The notes below the pieces were generated by a model that was not told the origin of the DNA, ran no database searches, and saw only the letters and a list, made by a program, of their open reading frames with translations. Shown here one piece after another: positions 11,146-18,891 of a DNA stretch of 64,000 nucleotides (positions within the stretch are counted from its first letter, which is position 1; each line of letters starts with the position of its first letter). Made by a program: the position numbers and the translations under genes. Source of the stretch: Paraburkholderia sp. HP33-1 (GTDB taxonomy: Bacteria > Pseudomonadota > Gammaproteobacteria > Burkholderiales > Burkholderiaceae). The DNA is taken from assembly GCF_021390595.1 (NCBI RefSeq), contig NZ_JAJEJR010000001.1:434001-498000 (forward strand), written 5' to 3'.

Positions 11146-11347
11146 ATGGCAGTGCGCAAATTGCTTTGTAGAACTGCAAATTATCCCAATGCTTCAGCCG
11201 GATTCGGAAGGCTCCGATTGTCGTGATTGTGTGAGGGTGATGAGATGGCTTCTCCGGCGCGGCGCCTGAGTGCCGCGACGCAGGTCGATGCACGCACGGT
11301 AATTCCTGCGCACATACCCACCACTCATATAACGAGCGAAACCAATC

Positions 11348-12001
11348 GTGGCGAATCTACGAATCATTCTGGCGGACGATCATCCGTTCGTCCTGCTTGG
11401 CCTGAAATCGACACTGGAGAGGTACGAAGGACTGTCCGTCGTCGGTCAGGCGAGCGCGCCCACCGCGTTGATCGCCATGCTGCAACACACGCGGTGCGAC
11501 GTGCTCGCCGTCGATCTTTCCATGCCGGAGCCCGCCGGAGGGATCGGCGACGGACTCGCCTTGATCCGACACATCCGCCGCACGTGGCCTTCATTGCGCG
11601 TCGTCGTCGTGACCGCGCAGACGAACGCCGCGATGTTGCGCGTCATCGCCTCCGATGGCGCCGTCAGCGTGATCGGGAAAACCGACTCGCTCGACGAATT
11701 GCCGCGGGCCATCAGCGACAGCGCGCGCTACCTGGGCCGCTCGGTGGCCGAAACGCTTGCGTGTTCGCAGCAGGACAACGGTGTGCTCGTGTCGGCACTG
11801 CTGTTGTCGAAGCGGCAGACCGACATCCTGCGCAGGCTGGTGAACGGCGAGTCCATCGCGCAGATCGCGACGGCGCTCGGCTGCCATCGCCGCACGGTGA
11901 GCCGGCAAAAACGCGAAGCGATGGCGCGGCTTGGCGTCGCCGACGATCCCGCGCTTTTCTCCTGTGTGCGCGCCTGCGGCACGCTCCTGCTGGAACCCTA
12001 A
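11348..12001 (+). CDS. NarL/RcsB-type response regulator 1
   Basis: The 217-residue protein has an N-terminal receiver domain (about 3-125) and a C-terminal LuxR-type helix-turn-helix (about 150-210). The acidic pair is in ADDHP, the phosphoacceptor Asp is in AVDLSMP, and the Thr and Lys positions are kept (VVTAQ, GKT). It starts with GTG at 11348 behind a weak ribosome site. It is the first of three tandem paralogues upstream of a phosphorelay kinase. Its recognition helix (HRRTVSRQKREAM) differs most from the other two, suggesting different DNA targets. Confidence 0.88.
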   Translation: MANLRIILADDHPFVLLGLKSTLERYEGLSVVGQASAPTALIAMLQHTRCDVLAVDLSMPEPAGGIGDGLALIRHIRRTWPSLRVVVVTAQTNAAMLRVIASDGAVSVIGKTDSLDELPRAISDSARYLGRSVAETLACSQQDNGVLVSALLLSKRQTDILRRLVNGESIAQIATALGCHRRTVSRQKREAMARLGVADDPALFSCVRACGTLLLEP

Positions 12002-12136
12002 GCATCCGGTAAACGCTATTCGGTCGATTTCAGAGCGTTCTTATGTTGGTCGCAAAAGAAATGCTCGACCATTCAGTGAGCGCCGGTCATACACAACAAG
12101 GTGTCGGGAAATGAAAGTATCGTGGAGCGCCAGACG

Positions 12137-12826
12137 ATGAACCTCATGGCTGCATCAGGCACGCCTGTTCGAACGATCATCGCGGACGATCATCCGTTGG
12201 TTCTGCTGGCTATAGAAAATCTGATTGGCAATTATCCCAACCTGAAGGTGGTTGGCCGCGCGGCAGATGTCGCCGAACTGTTTATCGAAGCCGACCGCAG
12301 TCCCTGCGATCTCGTGCTGATGGACCTATACATGCCGGGAGGGCACAACGACAACGGGTTCGAAGCCGTGAGGCAGTTCAAGGCACGCTATCCCAACGTC
12401 GCGCTCGTCATTTTGACAATGGAAACGGAGGCCACGACGCTGCGCAAGGTGATGTCGCTCGGCGTGAATGGACTGCTGAGCAAGCGCGACCGCATCGATC
12501 TGATTCATGTGGCGGTGGTCATGGCGCTGGCGCGCGAGTGTTATGTCGGTCCGGCGGTGCGCGCCATGCTCACCGACGTCACGCTGGCGCAACGGCGCGA
12601 CTACGTGCGCGCCACATTGTCTCGCCGCGAGTTCGAGGTATTTACGCAGTACGCGTCGGGACTCGGGGTCACGGAAATCGCTATTCGGCTGGGGCGTAGC
12701 GTGAAGACGATCAGCGCGCAAAAGTGCATGGCCATGCGCAAGCTGTCGCTGAATAGCGAAGCCGAATTGTTTCGTTTCGCCGTCGAATATGGAGTAGTGC
12801 CCGAAGGGCATGGTAGCGACCGCTAA
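12137..12826 (+). CDS. NarL/RcsB-type response regulator 2
   Basis: The 229-residue protein has a receiver domain with the acidic pair in ADDHP, the phosphoacceptor in LMDLYMP and the Lys in SKRD, and a C-terminal helix-turn-helix with KTISAQKCMAMRKL. The latter closely follows the RcsB pattern. The ATG at 12137 was chosen because GGAG lies 9 bases upstream; a GTG at 12101 would add 12 residues. It is separated from regulator 1 by 135 bases that could hold a second promoter. It may act as homodimer or as a partner of the neighbouring regulators. Confidence 0.88.
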   Translation: MNLMAASGTPVRTIIADDHPLVLLAIENLIGNYPNLKVVGRAADVAELFIEADRSPCDLVLMDLYMPGGHNDNGFEAVRQFKARYPNVALVILTMETEATTLRKVMSLGVNGLLSKRDRIDLIHVAVVMALARECYVGPAVRAMLTDVTLAQRRDYVRATLSRREFEVFTQYASGLGVTEIAIRLGRSVKTISAQKCMAMRKLSLNSEAELFRFAVEYGVVPEGHGSDR

Positions 12827-12932
12827 CCGGGCGGCAACCTGCTGCGCAGGCGCGCAGCGAATGTATCGGCATAACCGGGGACACATTTCGTGCGGTATGC
12901 CGATCGACAATATAAGAAAGCCACGCAAAAGA

Positions 12933-13577
12933 ATGACCAACAAGATATACGTCGTCGTGGCGGACGATCACGACTGCGTTCGTGAGGGCGTCCGATCTCT
13001 GCTGCGCGACAAGCCGAATATCGAAATCGTCGGCGAAGCGGCCGACACCGATAGTCTCGCGAAGCTGCTCGATGCCTGCGCATGCGACGTCGTCGTGTCG
13101 GACATCGGCATGCCGGGACTCGACGGAGACAGCAGCGCGGTGCCGCTATTGCGTCGCCTGTTGCGGCGCAAGTCGCACCCGCACGTGGTCGTGCTGACTA
13201 TGATCGAGCGTGCACACGTCTTGACGGGCTTGCGCAATATCGGTGTGACAGGAATCGTCGACAAGCGCGACGCCGCGAGCGCACTGATCGACGCAATCGA
13301 GGCCGTTGCCGCCGGGCGCACTCATCTATCGGAGCAGGTGATGGCGGTACTCGCGGCTGCCGATCCTGCGCCGCCCGGTCGCGGCGGTGCGATGAGCGCG
13401 CGCGAGTGGGAGGTGTTTCAGCTCTATGCGCGAGGCCTCGCGGTGCACGAAATCGCCACGCGTCTGCGACGTAGCGACAAAACCATCAGCACGCAAAAGC
13501 GCAGCGCGATGCGCAAGCTCGGACTGGAAACGGAAGCCGATCTGATCGACTACGCCGCTCAGATCGGGCTCGTATGA
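12933..13577 (+). CDS. NarL/RcsB-type response regulator 3
   Basis: The 214-residue protein has a receiver domain (acidic pair in ADDHD, phosphoacceptor in VSDIGMP, Lys in DKRD) and a helix-turn-helix with KTISTQKRSAMRKL, very near the RcsB sequence. The ATG at 12933 places the receiver fold directly after the start; an ATG at 12897 is possible. It is followed after 41 bases by the aquaporin gene and then the kinase, so it is the regulator most likely to be co-made with the kinase. Confidence 0.88.
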   Translation: MTNKIYVVVADDHDCVREGVRSLLRDKPNIEIVGEAADTDSLAKLLDACACDVVVSDIGMPGLDGDSSAVPLLRRLLRRKSHPHVVVLTMIERAHVLTGLRNIGVTGIVDKRDAASALIDAIEAVAAGRTHLSEQVMAVLAAADPAPPGRGGAMSAREWEVFQLYARGLAVHEIATRLRRSDKTISTQKRSAMRKLGLETEADLIDYAAQIGLV

Positions 13578-13618
13578 GGCGCTGTGATACTCAAAAATTC
13601 TTGACGGATGGGATAGAA

Positions 13619-14365
13619 ATGGTGGCGTTGGGCAAGCGATTGTGGAGCGAGGGCGTGGGTACGGCATGGCTCGTGTTCGTCGGCTGCGCCAGCACGGTGC
13701 TGGATACCGCGAGCGTGCTGCAGGCTAGCGGTGCGCTGCAAATGTCGTTGGCGTTCGGTCTTGCGCTCGCTACCGCCAGCTATGCCTTCGGCAAGATTTC
13801 CGGCGCCCATTTCAATCCTGCCGTCACCATCGGCTTCACGGTCGCTCAGCGTTTTCCGGTGCGCGATCTGTTGCCCTATATCGCCGCGCAGATCGCGGGC
13901 GCAATCGTCGCAGCGGCGTTTCTTGCCTATCTCGCCTGCGGCCGGCCGGGTTTCGAACTTGCCGCGAGCGAATTCGCGGCGAACGGCTTCGGCGCGCATT
14001 CGCCCGCCGACTATCCGTTGCATTCGGCGCTCGTCATGGAGTTCGTGCTGTCGTTCGTTTTCGTCGCGGCCTGCCTGCTGGTCGTCGTTCGAAAAGAGCT
14101 GGCTACGGTTGCGCCGTTCATCACCGGCGCATGTCTGATGCTCGTCTATCTGGTGTCGATTCCGGTCACCAATGGATCGGTCAATCCCGCCCGCTCGACA
14201 GCGCAGGCGCTATTCGTCGGCAATTGGGCGCTGGACCAGCTGTGGCTGTTCTGGGCCGCGCCGTTGGCGGGTGCGATCGCGGCTGGCGTGCTGTTTTCGT
14301 TTCTGGACGGCCATGCTGATGCGTCCACAGGGTCGCTGGCGGACGGGCAGGGTGACGTTTCGTGA
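13619..14365 (+). CDS. Aquaporin-family channel (AqpZ-like) with altered filter
   Basis: The 248-residue protein has six membrane helices and both NPA boxes (HFNPAVT and VNPARST), so it is a MIP-family channel for water or small neutral solutes. By eye it aligns along its length with E. coli AqpZ. The four filter positions (F43, H174, T183, R189 in AqpZ) read Phe, Tyr, Gly and Arg here, so two of four differ. The ATG at 13619 fits AqpZ-type N-termini; an ATG at 13574 overlaps the regulator stop (ATGA). Its stop overlaps the kinase GTG by four bases, which ties it to the signalling operon. Confidence 0.9.
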   Translation: MVALGKRLWSEGVGTAWLVFVGCASTVLDTASVLQASGALQMSLAFGLALATASYAFGKISGAHFNPAVTIGFTVAQRFPVRDLLPYIAAQIAGAIVAAAFLAYLACGRPGFELAASEFAANGFGAHSPADYPLHSALVMEFVLSFVFVAACLLVVVRKELATVAPFITGACLMLVYLVSIPVTNGSVNPARSTAQALFVGNWALDQLWLFWAAPLAGAIAAGVLFSFLDGHADASTGSLADGQGDVS

Positions 14366-17300
14366 GCGCGGGGCGTCACTCGCTGCGCCACTCGACGATG
14401 CATTGGCTCGCGTTATGTCTGCTGGCCGCCACGCATGCGATCTGCATGGCCGCACCCGGCGGCGTGGAGTCGGAGGCGTCCGCAATCGTCTCTGTCTCCG
14501 CGGCCTCCGCAGTGCATGTGCGCTCTTTAGCCCCGTCGCCCACTGCATTTCCCGCCAGATTGACCGTCGGCATACTCGAAGGCGGCTGGCCGCCATTCGA
14601 CATCCAGCAGGACGGCCGGCCCGCCGGCATCAGCGGCGACCTGTTGCGCGTGCTCGTGGGGCCGAACGTCGTCATCGAGACGAAGACCTTTCCCGATATG
14701 GCCAAACTCATCGACGCCGCATGCTCCGGCCAGGTCGACCTGCTGATGAGCGTAGCGCGTACGCCGGAGCGCGAACGCTGCCTCGGTTTCACGGCGCCGT
14801 ACTTCCGCGCGTTCGCGTCGGCTGTCGTGCGTCGCGACGATACCCATTACGCGAACTCTGCCAACCTCGGCGGCGCGCGTATCGCGATTGAGCGAGGTTT
14901 TGCGCGTGAGCGTCTGTTGCGCGATGGCTTTCCGCACGCGAGGATCGTCTTGTTTGCGAGCACGCAAGAGGCGCTGACGGCGGTCCTGCATGGCGATGCC
15001 GACGTGTACTTCGGCTTCACGCCGGTCGTGCGATATGAACTGGCCACGGAGGCTTATCGCGGCCTGCGCGTGGCCTTCGAGCCAGTCGGCAAGGCGCTCG
15101 ACCTGCGCTTTGCCGTCTCGCCTCGACAGATTGCGTTGCGTGATCAACTGAACCGCGCGTTCGCTTCGCTGAACCCCGCCGAGGCCGCCGAGATACGCGC
15201 GCGCTGGCTGTCCGGCAACTTCAACACGGTGCCCGTACCAGACACCTCTGGCTTCACGCTAACGCCGGAAGAAAAGAACTGGCTGCGTTCACTGCCGCCG
15301 TTGCAGATCGGTTTTGACAAGGACTGGGCGCCGTTCAGCTATGTTGACGACGCCGGTCGCCCCGTCGGTCTGACCGCCGATTACCTCGCGTACCTGAGCA
15401 GTACGCTCGGCGTCGTGCTCAACCGCGCGCGCATGGCTGACTGGCCCACCACCGTCGAAGCGTTTCAGCGCGGCGACCTCGCGGTGCTGGCCACCGCGTC
15501 GAGCCGCGGTTCGCTTCTCGAAGGCGCCGAGCATACCCGCGTGTACGAGCGCGATCCGCTGGTGATCGTCGGGCGCAACGGCGTGCCGCCCGCATGTTCG
15601 TTCGACGACTTCGCGTCGTGCAGCATCGTGATGTCGCCGCATGTAGCCGGTTCGGTGCCGCTCGCGTTCGAAGCGGTGCCGGTCGATCACATCGTCGTCG
15701 CGGCGAGCCTCGACGATGCGCTGCGCGAGGTCGCGAGCGGCGAGGCCGACGTGGCGGTCGGCAACGCGGCCGCGATCAACGCGCAGCTGCGGCGGCACTA
15801 CGCCGCCGCCCTCAGGGTGCTCGGCACGCTCGGCGAATCCGACTCGTTGTATTTTGCCGTGCGCGAGGATCTGAGCCCGCTCGTCAAGCTGATCGATCGC
15901 GCGTTGCAGGCGATGCCTGCGGCCGAAAAGCAGCGCATCCGCCGCAAGTGGGTGAGGCCCGCCGCACCGCACGACGCGATCTGGAGCGTGACCGCGGTGC
16001 GGCTGCTGCCGGTCCTGATCGCCATCGGCGTCGTGCTGCTGGTCACGTTGCGCTCGTACGTGCTGCTGCAGCGCGAAGTCCGGCTGCGCAAGCAGACCGA
16101 GCGCGAGCTTGCACTGCAACTCAACTTCCAGGAAACGATGATGCAGACGGTGCCGTATCCGCTCACCGCGAAAGGCCTGGACGGACGGTACATCGCGATC
16201 AACGAAGCCTATGAGAAAGCGTGCGGGCTCGACCGGGAGGCCGTGCTCGGGCGCACGACGGCCGAGGTCGGCACATGGGGCGACGCGAACAGCCGCATGC
16301 TCGACGACATGACGCGCGAGATTCTGCGCGGCGGCGGCAGCGCGAATGTCGAGTTGCAGTTCGAGGACAGCGCCGGCGAGTCGCGGCATGGGCTTTTCTG
16401 GACGAGAGTCTGCAAAGGCACCGACGGACAGCCGGCGTACGTGCTCGGCACGATGGTCGACATCACCGATATCCGGCGTGCCGAAATGCGCGCGCGCGAA
16501 ACCGAACGGCGCCTGTTCGACGTCACGCGCTCGTTGCCGGCCGTTGTGTTCCAGTTGCGGCGCTCGCCGGCCGGCGCGTATTCGTTCCCGTACATCGGCG
16601 GCGACACGCGGCATCTGCTCGGCGAGGGTGGTGGCGACGCAAACGCATCGCCAGGGCTTGCGCGGGTCGATTTCCAGCGCGTGTCGGAGCTGGATCGGCC
16701 GCTCGTGCTCGGCGAGCTCGAGCGTTCCGCGAGCCGTGCCACTCCCGTGCATATGGAGTTCCGCCTCGAAAGCGCCGGCCAGCTGAAATGGGTGCGGGCC
16801 GAGTTGGTGCCGCGGCGCGAAGCCGACGGCAGCGTCGTGTGGAGCGGCTATTGGGTCGATGCGAGCGTCGAGCGCGCGCGTTCGGAGGAGCTCGCGCGGG
16901 CACGCGATGTGGCCGAGGCGGCCTCGCGCGCGAAGGACAACTTCTTCGCGATGATGAGCCACGAAATCCGCACGCCGATGAATGGCGTGCTGGGTCTCGT
17001 CGAAGTGCTCGAGCGCACGCAGCTCAGTACCGACCAGAGCGAAATGCTCGGCATGATCCACGAGTCGGCGGGCGCGCTGCTGCAGATTCTCGATGACCTG
17101 CTCGACTATTCGAAGATCGAGGCGGGGCGGCTCACGCTCGAAGCCGAGCCGATCGATCTGCGTGAGCTCGTCGATAACGCGGTCGGCTTGCTGGCGGGGG
17201 GCGCCCACGAAAAAGGTCTGAAAGTGCGCGTAGACATTGCGGCCCGCGTCGCTGCGACGCTGCGCAGCGACAGCGTGCGTCTGCGGCAGATTCTGTTCAA

Positions 17301-18891
17301 CCTGCTCGGCAATGCGATCAAGTTCACGCCGAAGGGCGAGGTGGGCGTGAGCGTATCGGTCGTCGAAGATCGCGCGGATTCGCAGACCTTGGAACTGACC
17401 GTGCAGGACACCGGCATCGGCATCGCACCGGACCTGCAGGCGGGTTTGTTCGAGCCGTTCGTGCAGGCGGAATCGTCCACCACGCGGCGCTTCGGCGGCA
17501 CGGGCCTCGGGCTGACGATCTGCCGCAAGCTGATCGAACTGATGAACGGCACGCTCACGCTGCGCAGCGAACTCGGCCACGGCACGAGCATGATCGTGCG
17601 GCTGACGATGCCGGTCGTCGCGCGGCGCTATCCGGTCAATGGTCTGCGCGGCAAACTCGGCGTGGTGATCACGCGTGATCCTTGCATCGGCCGCGCCCTG
17701 GCGCAGTTCGGCGAGGCGCTTGGGCTCGAACTGCGCCGCCTCGCGCCCGACGCGGCGACGCTGGGCGACAGTGCCACACTGAGCCGCGCGGATCTGCTGT
17801 TCGTCGGCGACGACGTCACGTTGCCCGCGCGTATCGGCGCCAATACGCGCGTCATCACGCTGACCGAAAAATCGCAGCCGACGGGTTACCGCATCGTCGA
17901 CGACAAGGTGCGCGTGAGCATCAACCCGATTTCCTGGCGCGGTCTCGGCGCCGCGTGCGCGGCAGCGATGACGGGGCTGCCGTCGATGGCCCCGATGGGC
18001 TCGCGCGCGGCAGGCGTGCCGTCCGCGATCGAAGGCGTCGCGCCGCCGCCGGATCGTGAACGCGCGATCGCGAGCGGGCGGCTGATTCTTGTCGCGGAAG
18101 ATCATCCAGTCAATCAGGAGCTGATCCGCCAGCAACTCGCACTGCTGGGTTTCGCGTGCGACGTCGCGAACGACGGCGTCGAGGCGCTCGCGGCGCTGGA
18201 GCGCACGAACTATGGTTGCCTGATCACGGACTGTCACATGCCGAACCTGTCCGGCTACGAACTGACCCGCCGTATCCGCGAAGCGGAGGCACGGCGCGGC
18301 GGCGCGCAACGTCTGCCGATACTCGGCATCACGGCCAATACCGCGCCCGACGATCTGGGTCTCTGCCGCGAAGCCGGCATGGACGACAGTCTGATCAAGC
18401 CGACCCGGCTCGCGACGCTGCGCGACAACCTGGGCCGCTGGTTTGGCACCGACAGCGTGCGGCAGGCCGCGCCGCCGGAAACGCCCGGTCGCACGTCGTC
18501 AGCGCCGGCCGGCGAGCGGCCGGCCATGCAGAGCGTGAGCGCCGAGCCGTTCGTGCCGGTCGAACTCGCGCACATGACGCAATTGTGGGGGAGCGAGGCG
18601 ACGGTCAAGGCGTTGCTCGGCTCATTCGTCTCGTCGATGCGCGACGACATCAAAGCGCTTGCGGCGTTACTCGAACGCGCGGACGAGGGGCGGGTGCGCG
18701 AGTGGCTGCATCGGGTGACGGGGGCGGCGAGCGTGCTGCAGTATCCGCCGCTCGTGCAAGCGCTCGAAGCCTATTGCTGCGACATCAGCGCGAAATCGCC
18801 CGAGCAGTTGCGTGACGAGGGGCATGCGCTGATCCGCGAATGCGAGGCGATGCTCGACGGCATCGAACAGCAGGCCGCGTTGCTCGCCTAG
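14362..18891 (+). CDS. BvgS/EvgS-like hybrid sensor kinase (phosphorelay)
   Basis: This 1509-residue inner membrane kinase has a signal sequence (about 12-31), two tandem periplasmic solute-binding domains of the SBP_bac_3 type (about 66-290 and 312-535), and a membrane helix (about 546-567). Two PAS domains (about 590-710 and 713-842) follow, then a HisKA domain with H867 in MMSHEIRTPMNG, and an ATPase domain with LLGNAIKF and DTGIGI. A degenerate receiver (about 1098-1200), a full receiver with D1290 and a C-terminal Hpt domain with H1450 complete it. The start is a GTG inside the aquaporin stop (GTGA). It probably phosphorylates one or more of the three upstream regulators; the ligand is unknown. 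Confidence 0.93.
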   Translation: MSAGRHSLRHSTMHWLALCLLAATHAICMAAPGGVESEASAIVSVSAASAVHVRSLAPSPTAFPARLTVGILEGGWPPFDIQQDGRPAGISGDLLRVLVGPNVVIETKTFPDMAKLIDAACSGQVDLLMSVARTPERERCLGFTAPYFRAFASAVVRRDDTHYANSANLGGARIAIERGFARERLLRDGFPHARIVLFASTQEALTAVLHGDADVYFGFTPVVRYELATEAYRGLRVAFEPVGKALDLRFAVSPRQIALRDQLNRAFASLNPAEAAEIRARWLSGNFNTVPVPDTSGFTLTPEEKNWLRSLPPLQIGFDKDWAPFSYVDDAGRPVGLTADYLAYLSSTLGVVLNRARMADWPTTVEAFQRGDLAVLATASSRGSLLEGAEHTRVYERDPLVIVGRNGVPPACSFDDFASCSIVMSPHVAGSVPLAFEAVPVDHIVVAASLDDALREVASGEADVAVGNAAAINAQLRRHYAAALRVLGTLGESDSLYFAVREDLSPLVKLIDRALQAMPAAEKQRIRRKWVRPAAPHDAIWSVTAVRLLPVLIAIGVVLLVTLRSYVLLQREVRLRKQTERELALQLNFQETMMQTVPYPLTAKGLDGRYIAINEAYEKACGLDREAVLGRTTAEVGTWGDANSRMLDDMTREILRGGGSANVELQFEDSAGESRHGLFWTRVCKGTDGQPAYVLGTMVDITDIRRAEMRARETERRLFDVTRSLPAVVFQLRRSPAGAYSFPYIGGDTRHLLGEGGGDANASPGLARVDFQRVSELDRPLVLGELERSASRATPVHMEFRLESAGQLKWVRAELVPRREADGSVVWSGYWVDASVERARSEELARARDVAEAASRAKDNFFAMMSHEIRTPMNGVLGLVEVLERTQLSTDQSEMLGMIHESAGALLQILDDLLDYSKIEAGRLTLEAEPIDLRELVDNAVGLLAGGAHEKGLKVRVDIAARVAATLRSDSVRLRQILFNLLGNAIKFTPKGEVGVSVSVVEDRADSQTLELTVQDTGIGIAPDLQAGLFEPFVQAESSTTRRFGGTGLGLTICRKLIELMNGTLTLRSELGHGTSMIVRLTMPVVARRYPVNGLRGKLGVVITRDPCIGRALAQFGEALGLELRRLAPDAATLGDSATLSRADLLFVGDDVTLPARIGANTRVITLTEKSQPTGYRIVDDKVRVSINPISWRGLGAACAAAMTGLPSMAPMGSRAAGVPSAIEGVAPPPDRERAIASGRLILVAEDHPVNQELIRQQLALLGFACDVANDGVEALAALERTNYGCLITDCHMPNLSGYELTRRIREAEARRGGAQRLPILGITANTAPDDLGLCREAGMDDSLIKPTRLATLRDNLGRWFGTDSVRQAAPPETPGRTSSAPAGERPAMQSVSAEPFVPVELAHMTQLWGSEATVKALLGSFVSSMRDDIKALAALLERADEGRVREWLHRVTGAASVLQYPPLVQALEAYCCDISAKSPEQLRDEGHALIRECEAMLDGIEQQAALLA

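Follow-up and report, generated by a model that had tools for sequence, protein, structure and literature searches.

An aquaporin gene with an altered selectivity filter is paired with a BvgS/EvgS-like kinase gene in Paraburkholderia, Trinickia and Caballeronia

In BvgAS of Bordetella and EvgAS of Escherichia coli, tandem periplasmic solute-binding domains are followed by HisKA, HATPase, receiver and Hpt domains. The same arrangement was found in a locus of Paraburkholderia sp. HP33-1 (assembly GCF_021390595.1, 7.35 Mb in four contigs). The locus lies in a stretch of 64,000 nucleotides (nt) of contig NZ_JAJEJR010000001.1; the whole stretch is called the window here, and coordinates are positions within it. 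The gene order is RR1-RR2-RR3-aquaporin-kinase, where RR stands for response regulator, with 5/5 genes on the plus strand. The locus differs from BvgAS and EvgAS in that it usually has three regulators of the RcsB type and not one of the BvgA/EvgA type, that its kinase gene is coupled to that of an aquaporin, and that sensor domains, singly or both together, have been lost repeatedly. It may encode a lineage-specific phosphorelay of the BvgS/EvgS kind, in which RcsB-like regulators form the output and a filter-altered channel belongs to the input side; we give this reading an even chance.

Three further systems were compared with the locus. The Rcs phosphorelay has an RcsC/RcsD pair, whereas the kinase here is one hybrid protein, and the locus regulators score below the RcsB cut-off. 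The likeness to Rcs lies in the regulators, for which RcsB is nearest, and in a DNA box resembling the RcsB half-sites of flhDC (TTAGGAA/TCTAAGA), which are contacted by RcsB K180 and S184 according to PMC5829831. The channel is AqpZ-like in sequence and passes the NCBIfam AqpZ cut-off, but its filter is never the F-H-T-R of AqpZ, and the change at its residue 174 is unusual by the standard of PMC6912568. In genus g24 of the same family, the three loci that were read (L095-L097) have a BvgS-like kinase of ~1500 amino acids (aa) with both solute-binding domains, as in the locus, but only one regulator and no aquaporin.

The gene order recurs beyond the window. When 200 genomes of the family were searched with the aquaporin and the kinase sensor, the two were found side by side again and again. 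Of these loci, 24 (window included) were read, and in one, that of P. heleia (G055), the aquaporin is only a fragment. A scan of named genomes, in which loci were located partly by a motif at the inner end of the kinase transmembrane helix, brought up 115 relatives, of which the 80 best were taken; these belong to Paraburkholderia, Trinickia and Caballeronia, and with the window there are 81 loci. The locus is complete (RR1, RR2, RR3, aquaporin and both sensor domains) in 53 of the 81. With regulator fragments scored as absent, RR3 is missing in 10 loci, RR1 in 6, RR2 in 1, and RR2 together with RR3 in 1. Sensor domain 1 is absent in 5/81 and domain 2 in 3/81, with all remaining parts present. 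Locus L171 (P. heleia) lacks RR2 and domain 1 and has its aquaporin reduced to a fragment, and L125 is cut at a contig end inside the aquaporin. RR1-RR2-RR3-aquaporin-kinase is a conserved block, beyond chance, in the three genera, relatives of Burkholderia that live in soil and with plants. A preliminary description of this DNA had proposed a search for the order across Burkholderiaceae and had named its confinement to a single genome as a refuting result, which is not what is seen. The nearest aquaporin among the matches listed belongs to Paraburkholderia sp. MMS20-SJTN17 (96% identity), also listed as P. translucens. A literature search by title and abstract, mostly outside subscription journals, found no paper describing the locus.

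Coordinates and Pfam matches confirmed the gene content given in the preliminary description, namely three receiver-helix-turn-helix proteins, a MIP channel and a 1509-residue kinase on the plus strand, with the aquaporin stop codon (TGA, 14363-14365) overlapping the kinase GTG (14362). The features are as follows.

11202..11218, plus strand: RcsB-type box upstream of RR1, 2 mismatches to TTTMRGANNNNTCTKAT
11348..12001, plus strand: RR1, RcsB-like response regulator with receiver and LuxR-type helix-turn-helix (Pfam, NCBIfam, single clade in tree)
12028..12044, plus strand: RcsB-type box upstream of RR2, 0 mismatches to TTTMRGANNNNTCTKAT
12137..12826, plus strand: RR2, RcsB-like response regulator (Pfam, NCBIfam, tree)
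12933..13577, plus strand: RR3, RcsB-like response regulator (Pfam, NCBIfam, tree); the listed open reading frame starts at 12810
13603..13604, no strand: junction without ~214 bp, including the conserved aquaporin box, relative to the closest loci (gap comparison with L109 and L110)
13619..14365, plus strand: AqpZ-like aquaporin, 248 aa, filter F-Y-G-R and not F-H-T-R (Pfam, NCBIfam, filter alignment)
14362..18891, plus strand: BvgS/EvgS-like hybrid kinase, 1509 residues (Pfam, NCBIfam, structure matches)
14542..15231, plus strand: kinase solute-binding domain 1, residues 61-290 (BvgS 4q0c, E=3e-52, family profile)
15247..15966, plus strand: kinase solute-binding domain 2, residues 296-535 (BvgS 4q0c, E=9e-47, family profile)
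16000..16059, plus strand: kinase transmembrane helix, residues 547-566, RLLP..I.....L..TLR (by eye)
16960..16962, plus strand: kinase phospho-acceptor His867 (81/81 aligned kinases)
18229..18231, plus strand: kinase receiver-domain Asp1290 (81/81 aligned kinases)
18709..18711, plus strand: kinase Hpt His1450 (81/81 aligned kinases)

The likely starts are ATG 12137 for RR2, ATG 12933 (not 12810) for RR3 and ATG 13619 for the aquaporin, the last being in line with the length of 247-248 aa in 103 of 120 listed aquaporin homologues. Given the RR3 start at 12933, RR3 does not overlap the aquaporin gene and the intergenic gap is 41 nt. Across the loci, with start codons picked by script, the median gaps were 139 nt for RR1-RR2, 109 nt for RR2-RR3, ~241 nt for RR3-aquaporin and 10 nt for aquaporin-kinase, and the last was zero or overlapping in 28/79 loci. 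The box consensus TTTMRGANNNNTCTKAT was built from two of the gaps in 15 loci, so that the count upstream of RR1 is the independent test. Allowing at most two mismatches, the box was present before RR1 in 64/74 loci, before RR2 in 52/71 and before the aquaporin in 75/79, in the last case ~192 nt upstream of the gene; it was found in 0/64 RR2-RR3 gaps and in 2/81 stretches 3' of the kinase. Shuffled controls, which preserve base composition only, contained it in 6/340 (RR3-aquaporin), 4/355 (RR1-RR2), 13/370 (before RR1) and 12/405 (after the kinase) cases. In loci without RR3, a one-mismatch box was found in 10/10 RR2-aquaporin gaps. The aquaporin and kinase genes form a tight pair, and the regulators look like separate units. 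The preliminary description had proposed to measure co-transcription across the gene junctions; spacing and boxes suggest three promoter units, RR1, RR2-RR3 and aquaporin-kinase, and not a single operon. The 41-nt RR3-aquaporin gap of the window corresponds to 255 nt in L109 and 251 nt in L110, the two closest loci, and of all loci measured the window alone has this shortened junction. Because ~214 bp are missing from the 13577-13619 gap, the window genome has no aquaporin box, and its tight five-gene run is a local feature. An assembly fault may be the source of the missing segment.

The window aquaporin has the Pfam MIP domain, both NPA motifs and an NCBIfam AqpZ score of 263.9 bits against a cut-off of 256. 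The aromatic/arginine filter of AqpZ (positions 43/174/183/189 in E. coli AqpZ numbering) is F-H-T-R according to PMC6912568. Among 79 readable copies from the loci, the filters were FYGR (62), FSAR (6), FYAR (5), FCGR (3), FSGR (2) and SYGR (1), so that His174 and Thr183 were kept in 0/79. AqpZ copies outside the locus, collected by reading 9 loci and a further 9 with three genes common to both (G160, G132, G197), had F-H-T-R in 15/15 distinct copies. The best 120 of thousands of aquaporin homologues in the protein database had FYGR (108) or FYAR (12). The W-G-F-R filter of GlpF, its residues taken from the same paper (PMC6912568), is absent from the locus aquaporins. That source describes position 174 as mostly His or Ile in bacterial AqpZ relatives, with Gly/Ala allowed at 183; the telling change is therefore the replacement of His174 by Tyr, Ser or Cys. 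Kitchen et al. 2019 (PMC6937295) regard this filter histidine, present or absent, as the major feature that separates water channels from aquaglyceroporins. Judged from these residues, the locus aquaporin is not an ordinary AqpZ; a changed filter is claimed for it, with no named substrate. The NPA motif was present at the first site in 75/79 readable copies and at the second in 77/79; in L142, L144, L150 and L151 the first motif is changed to NPV or NPI. The ratio of non-synonymous to synonymous substitution rates (dN/dS) of the aquaporin against the two closest loci was 0.12 and 0.06, lower than for any of the other four genes; five further species pairs gave 0.12-0.23 (0.06-0.23 over 7). These ratios indicate that the gene is under purifying selection.

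The kinase consists of a signal peptide (identified by eye), two solute-binding domains, one transmembrane helix, PAS, HisKA, HATPase, receiver and Hpt. Pfam detected SBP_bac_3 (two stretches), PAS_4, HisKA, HATPase_c and Response_reg, with Hpt marginally below its cut-off (24.0 against 24.6 bits). The solved structures nearest to the two sensor domains were BvgS 4q0c and EvgS 9ilw; the NCBIfam EvgS equivalog cut-off was missed (273 against 1995 bits). Both solute-binding domains score above 90 bits in 72/81 locus kinases, and H867, D1290 and H1450 are intact in all 81. At L098 and L099 there is another BvgS-like kinase, ~1500 aa long and complete in its two sensor domains, and in the 19.5 kb read around it no regulator or aquaporin of the locus type was found. 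In divergent pairs the transmembrane helix is conserved much better than the sensor domains (identity 0.76 against 0.44). This conservation was considered as a sign of contact with the aquaporin and rejected, since the same helix is kept in the five aquaporin-less kinases that were read.

The loss of parts from the locus bears on the role of the channel. A juxtamembrane-PAS query (>300 bits) found an orthologous kinase in 39/200 genomes. In 23 of these the aquaporin is present along with one sensor domain or both (the kinase frame of G091 is broken). The others are P. heleia (G055) and 15 genomes without aquaporin from genus g10, which we infer to be Caballeronia. The aquaporin-less g10 kinases are 776-1176 aa long, 14/15 being at least 978 aa and the 776-aa one (G179) lying on a long branch, and 0/15 have a complete solute-binding domain. 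In these 15 loci tblastn (E up to 0.01) detected no aquaporin and no domain 1, and in 5/15 it detected a domain 2 remnant of 88-117 residues. The five g10 kinases that were read retain an apparent signal peptide (by eye) and the same transmembrane helix as the full kinases. The complete set of regulators was called in 8/15 loci, the others being affected by gaps of the simple gene caller or a contig end, and 14/15 contain one or more exact boxes. A tree was built from 41 of the 81 loci together with the short g10 loci (15) and 3 outgroup rows; in it the g10 loci form a single clade (support by the Shimodaira-Hasegawa-like approximate likelihood ratio test, SH-aLRT, 100), sister to nine aquaporin-bearing Caballeronia rows. 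Loss by one contiguous deletion of aquaporin and sensor domains is unlikely in g10, as the apparent signal peptide persists between the lost parts; in P. heleia a single contiguous deletion may have occurred. Two pairs of short g10 kinases gave dN/dS of 0.17 and 0.11, and neither the full nor the short form of the locus looks neutral.

Five Paraburkholderia genomes, G075 and G171 among them, had no kinase match, and the other three were read. In G183 the remnants are RR1, RR3 and a kinase frame of 603 aa that has no sensor domain, in G195 RR1 and an Hpt piece, and in G112 an RR1-like frame with kinase pieces; the aquaporin was not found in any of these three loci. Apart from L125, no locus among those examined had both sensor domains without the aquaporin. 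Where the aquaporin is missing, the kinase lacks one or both solute-binding domains, and in the g10 clade the regulators and boxes persist. The tie between channel and sensor put forward in the preliminary description thus holds in the loci examined, and by this pattern the channel appears to follow the sensor, with few loss events. An independent-pairs test of co-loss on the tree had 2 informative pairs only, and significance is not claimed.

All three regulators have Pfam Response_reg and GerE domains. Their best NCBIfam match is RcsB, with scores of 124, 110 and 127 bits (cut-off 235), and RcsB is also their closest solved structure. The receiver Asp is kept in RR1 (74/74), RR2 (77/77) and RR3 (69/69), and the recognition helix is RcsB-like, the positions of RcsB Q185 and K186 being kept in all three regulators. 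They form three separate clades of 19 rows each (SH-aLRT 98, 99 and 100), and this separation indicates that the triple is old. It is possible, though we would not lean towards it, that one signal is divided by the regulators among three regulons, much as the preliminary description proposed, since each clade is kept in three genera with intact phospho-sites and the recognition helices differ: the position of RcsB K180 is K in RR2 and RR3 and R in RR1, and that of S184 is A, T and R in the three regulators. However, one class of box serves all promoters of the locus. Moreover, among the 80 loci clear of contig ends, RR1 is absent or reduced to a fragment in 6, RR2 in 3 and RR3 in 11 while the rest of the locus stays, which also fits redundancy or RcsB-RcsA-like partners.

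The box was also found elsewhere in the genomes. Exact TTHRGANNNNTCYKAT was searched for within 450 nt before starts of genes with ESPR, an autotransporter signal. It precedes 11/42 ESPR starts in eight Paraburkholderia genomes, the window genome included, and windows shifted by 2-8 kb gave 0/168. Seven of the eight genomes have the kinase, and they account for 10/38. The five Paraburkholderia genomes without a kinase match gave 0/26 (one more box stands at 464 nt), and other genomes without the locus gave 5/56 (eight g12 genomes, 54-128 nt before the starts) and 1/4 (G214). The Fisher test of 10/38 against 6/86 gave p = 0.007, with shared ancestry ignored. Because the link between box and adhesin is present without the locus, other regulators may bind the same box. 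Four of the genes preceded by a box were confirmed as ESPR/YadA proteins. In the window genome, none of the three ESPR genes scanned has a box, and a YadA head/stalk gene (L205) has one 245 nt upstream. Control of adhesins by the system is plausible for the relatives and weak for the window genome. Box counts per genome exceeded those of a reversed-pattern control whether or not the genome has the locus; such counts, taken by themselves, therefore do not connect the box with these regulators.

Other genes stand behind exact boxes as well. In four Paraburkholderia genomes the box lies directly before a DUF4096-like (IS4/5 transposase) gene (L222, by Pfam; L237, L261 and L315, by similarity), and a similar exact site is recurrent in g12 genomes. 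A protein of 386-463 aa is encoded downstream of a box in 4/4 relatives read (L227, L240, L247, L317), and the two that were scanned had no Pfam match. OmpR-type response regulators follow exact boxes at L230, L233 and L234 in two genomes.

The best-supported reading places the channel on the sensor side, at about even odds, and several observations weigh against it. The tree contains only two aquaporin losses, far too few for a test, and solute-binding domain 1 or 2 has been lost in several lineages with the aquaporin still present. The loci of G183, G195 and G112 are decaying as a whole. The window genome itself has no aquaporin box, and boxes precede ESPR starts in genomes without the locus. 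Regarding the filter, Gly/Ala at 183 is inside the range reported for bacterial AqpZ relatives in PMC6912568, and only Tyr/Ser/Cys at 174 is outside it. AqpZ mutants with a GlpF-like filter did not become glycerol channels, and the filter is not a predictor of substrate, according to PMC6937295.

The aquaporin could instead be an output, that is, a target gene in the kinase operon through which signalling alters membrane permeability. The box ~192 nt before it is placed as for a target gene and resembles the RcsB half-sites given in PMC5829831. We consider this unlikely, because the box serves the kinase too, an exact one being still present before the kinase in 6/15 aquaporin-less g10 loci (L208-L212, L298), and because g10 keeps regulators and boxes while the channel goes along with the sensor domains. 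That the aquaporin is a passenger of a conserved chromosomal neighbourhood, unlinked to signalling, is improbable: the downstream CHRD and hydrolase genes are likewise conserved in most loci read, but an MFS/LysR pair upstream and a LysR gene downstream are variable while the aquaporin-kinase pair is constant and tightly coupled, with dN/dS of 0.06 and 0.12 in the window pairs and the altered filter in 79/79 copies.

In the sensor-side reading, a solute-dependent signal at the two tandem periplasmic domains would set the activity of the hybrid kinase. Phosphate would pass from H867 to D1290, then to H1450 and to up to three RcsB-like regulators, as the intact sites suggest. Judging from the boxes, the regulators would bind before RR1, RR2-RR3 and aquaporin-kinase, giving autoregulation, and at further genes, some trimeric autotransporter adhesins among them. 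The aquaporin would be made together with the kinase and serve its input side. Since the water-type His and Thr are lost from the filter, it would most likely pass a small, neutral solute linked to the cue that is sensed and set the periplasmic or cytoplasmic level of this solute. The interpretation in the preliminary description, a solute or osmotic cue handled with the channel, is partly supported: the link between channel and sensor stands, and a plain osmotic or water role fits less well, as the water-type filter His is lost. A stronger proposal makes the aquaporin itself an element of the sensing apparatus: the kinase would depend on the selectivity-altered channel, and flux or equilibration of a small solute through it would tune the BvgS-like phosphorelay. 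This proposal is tentative, and we would sooner doubt it than rely on it. If true, it would mean that an aquaporin is built into a bacterial two-component system, and it suggests that a membrane channel can belong to the way bacteria sense their surroundings.

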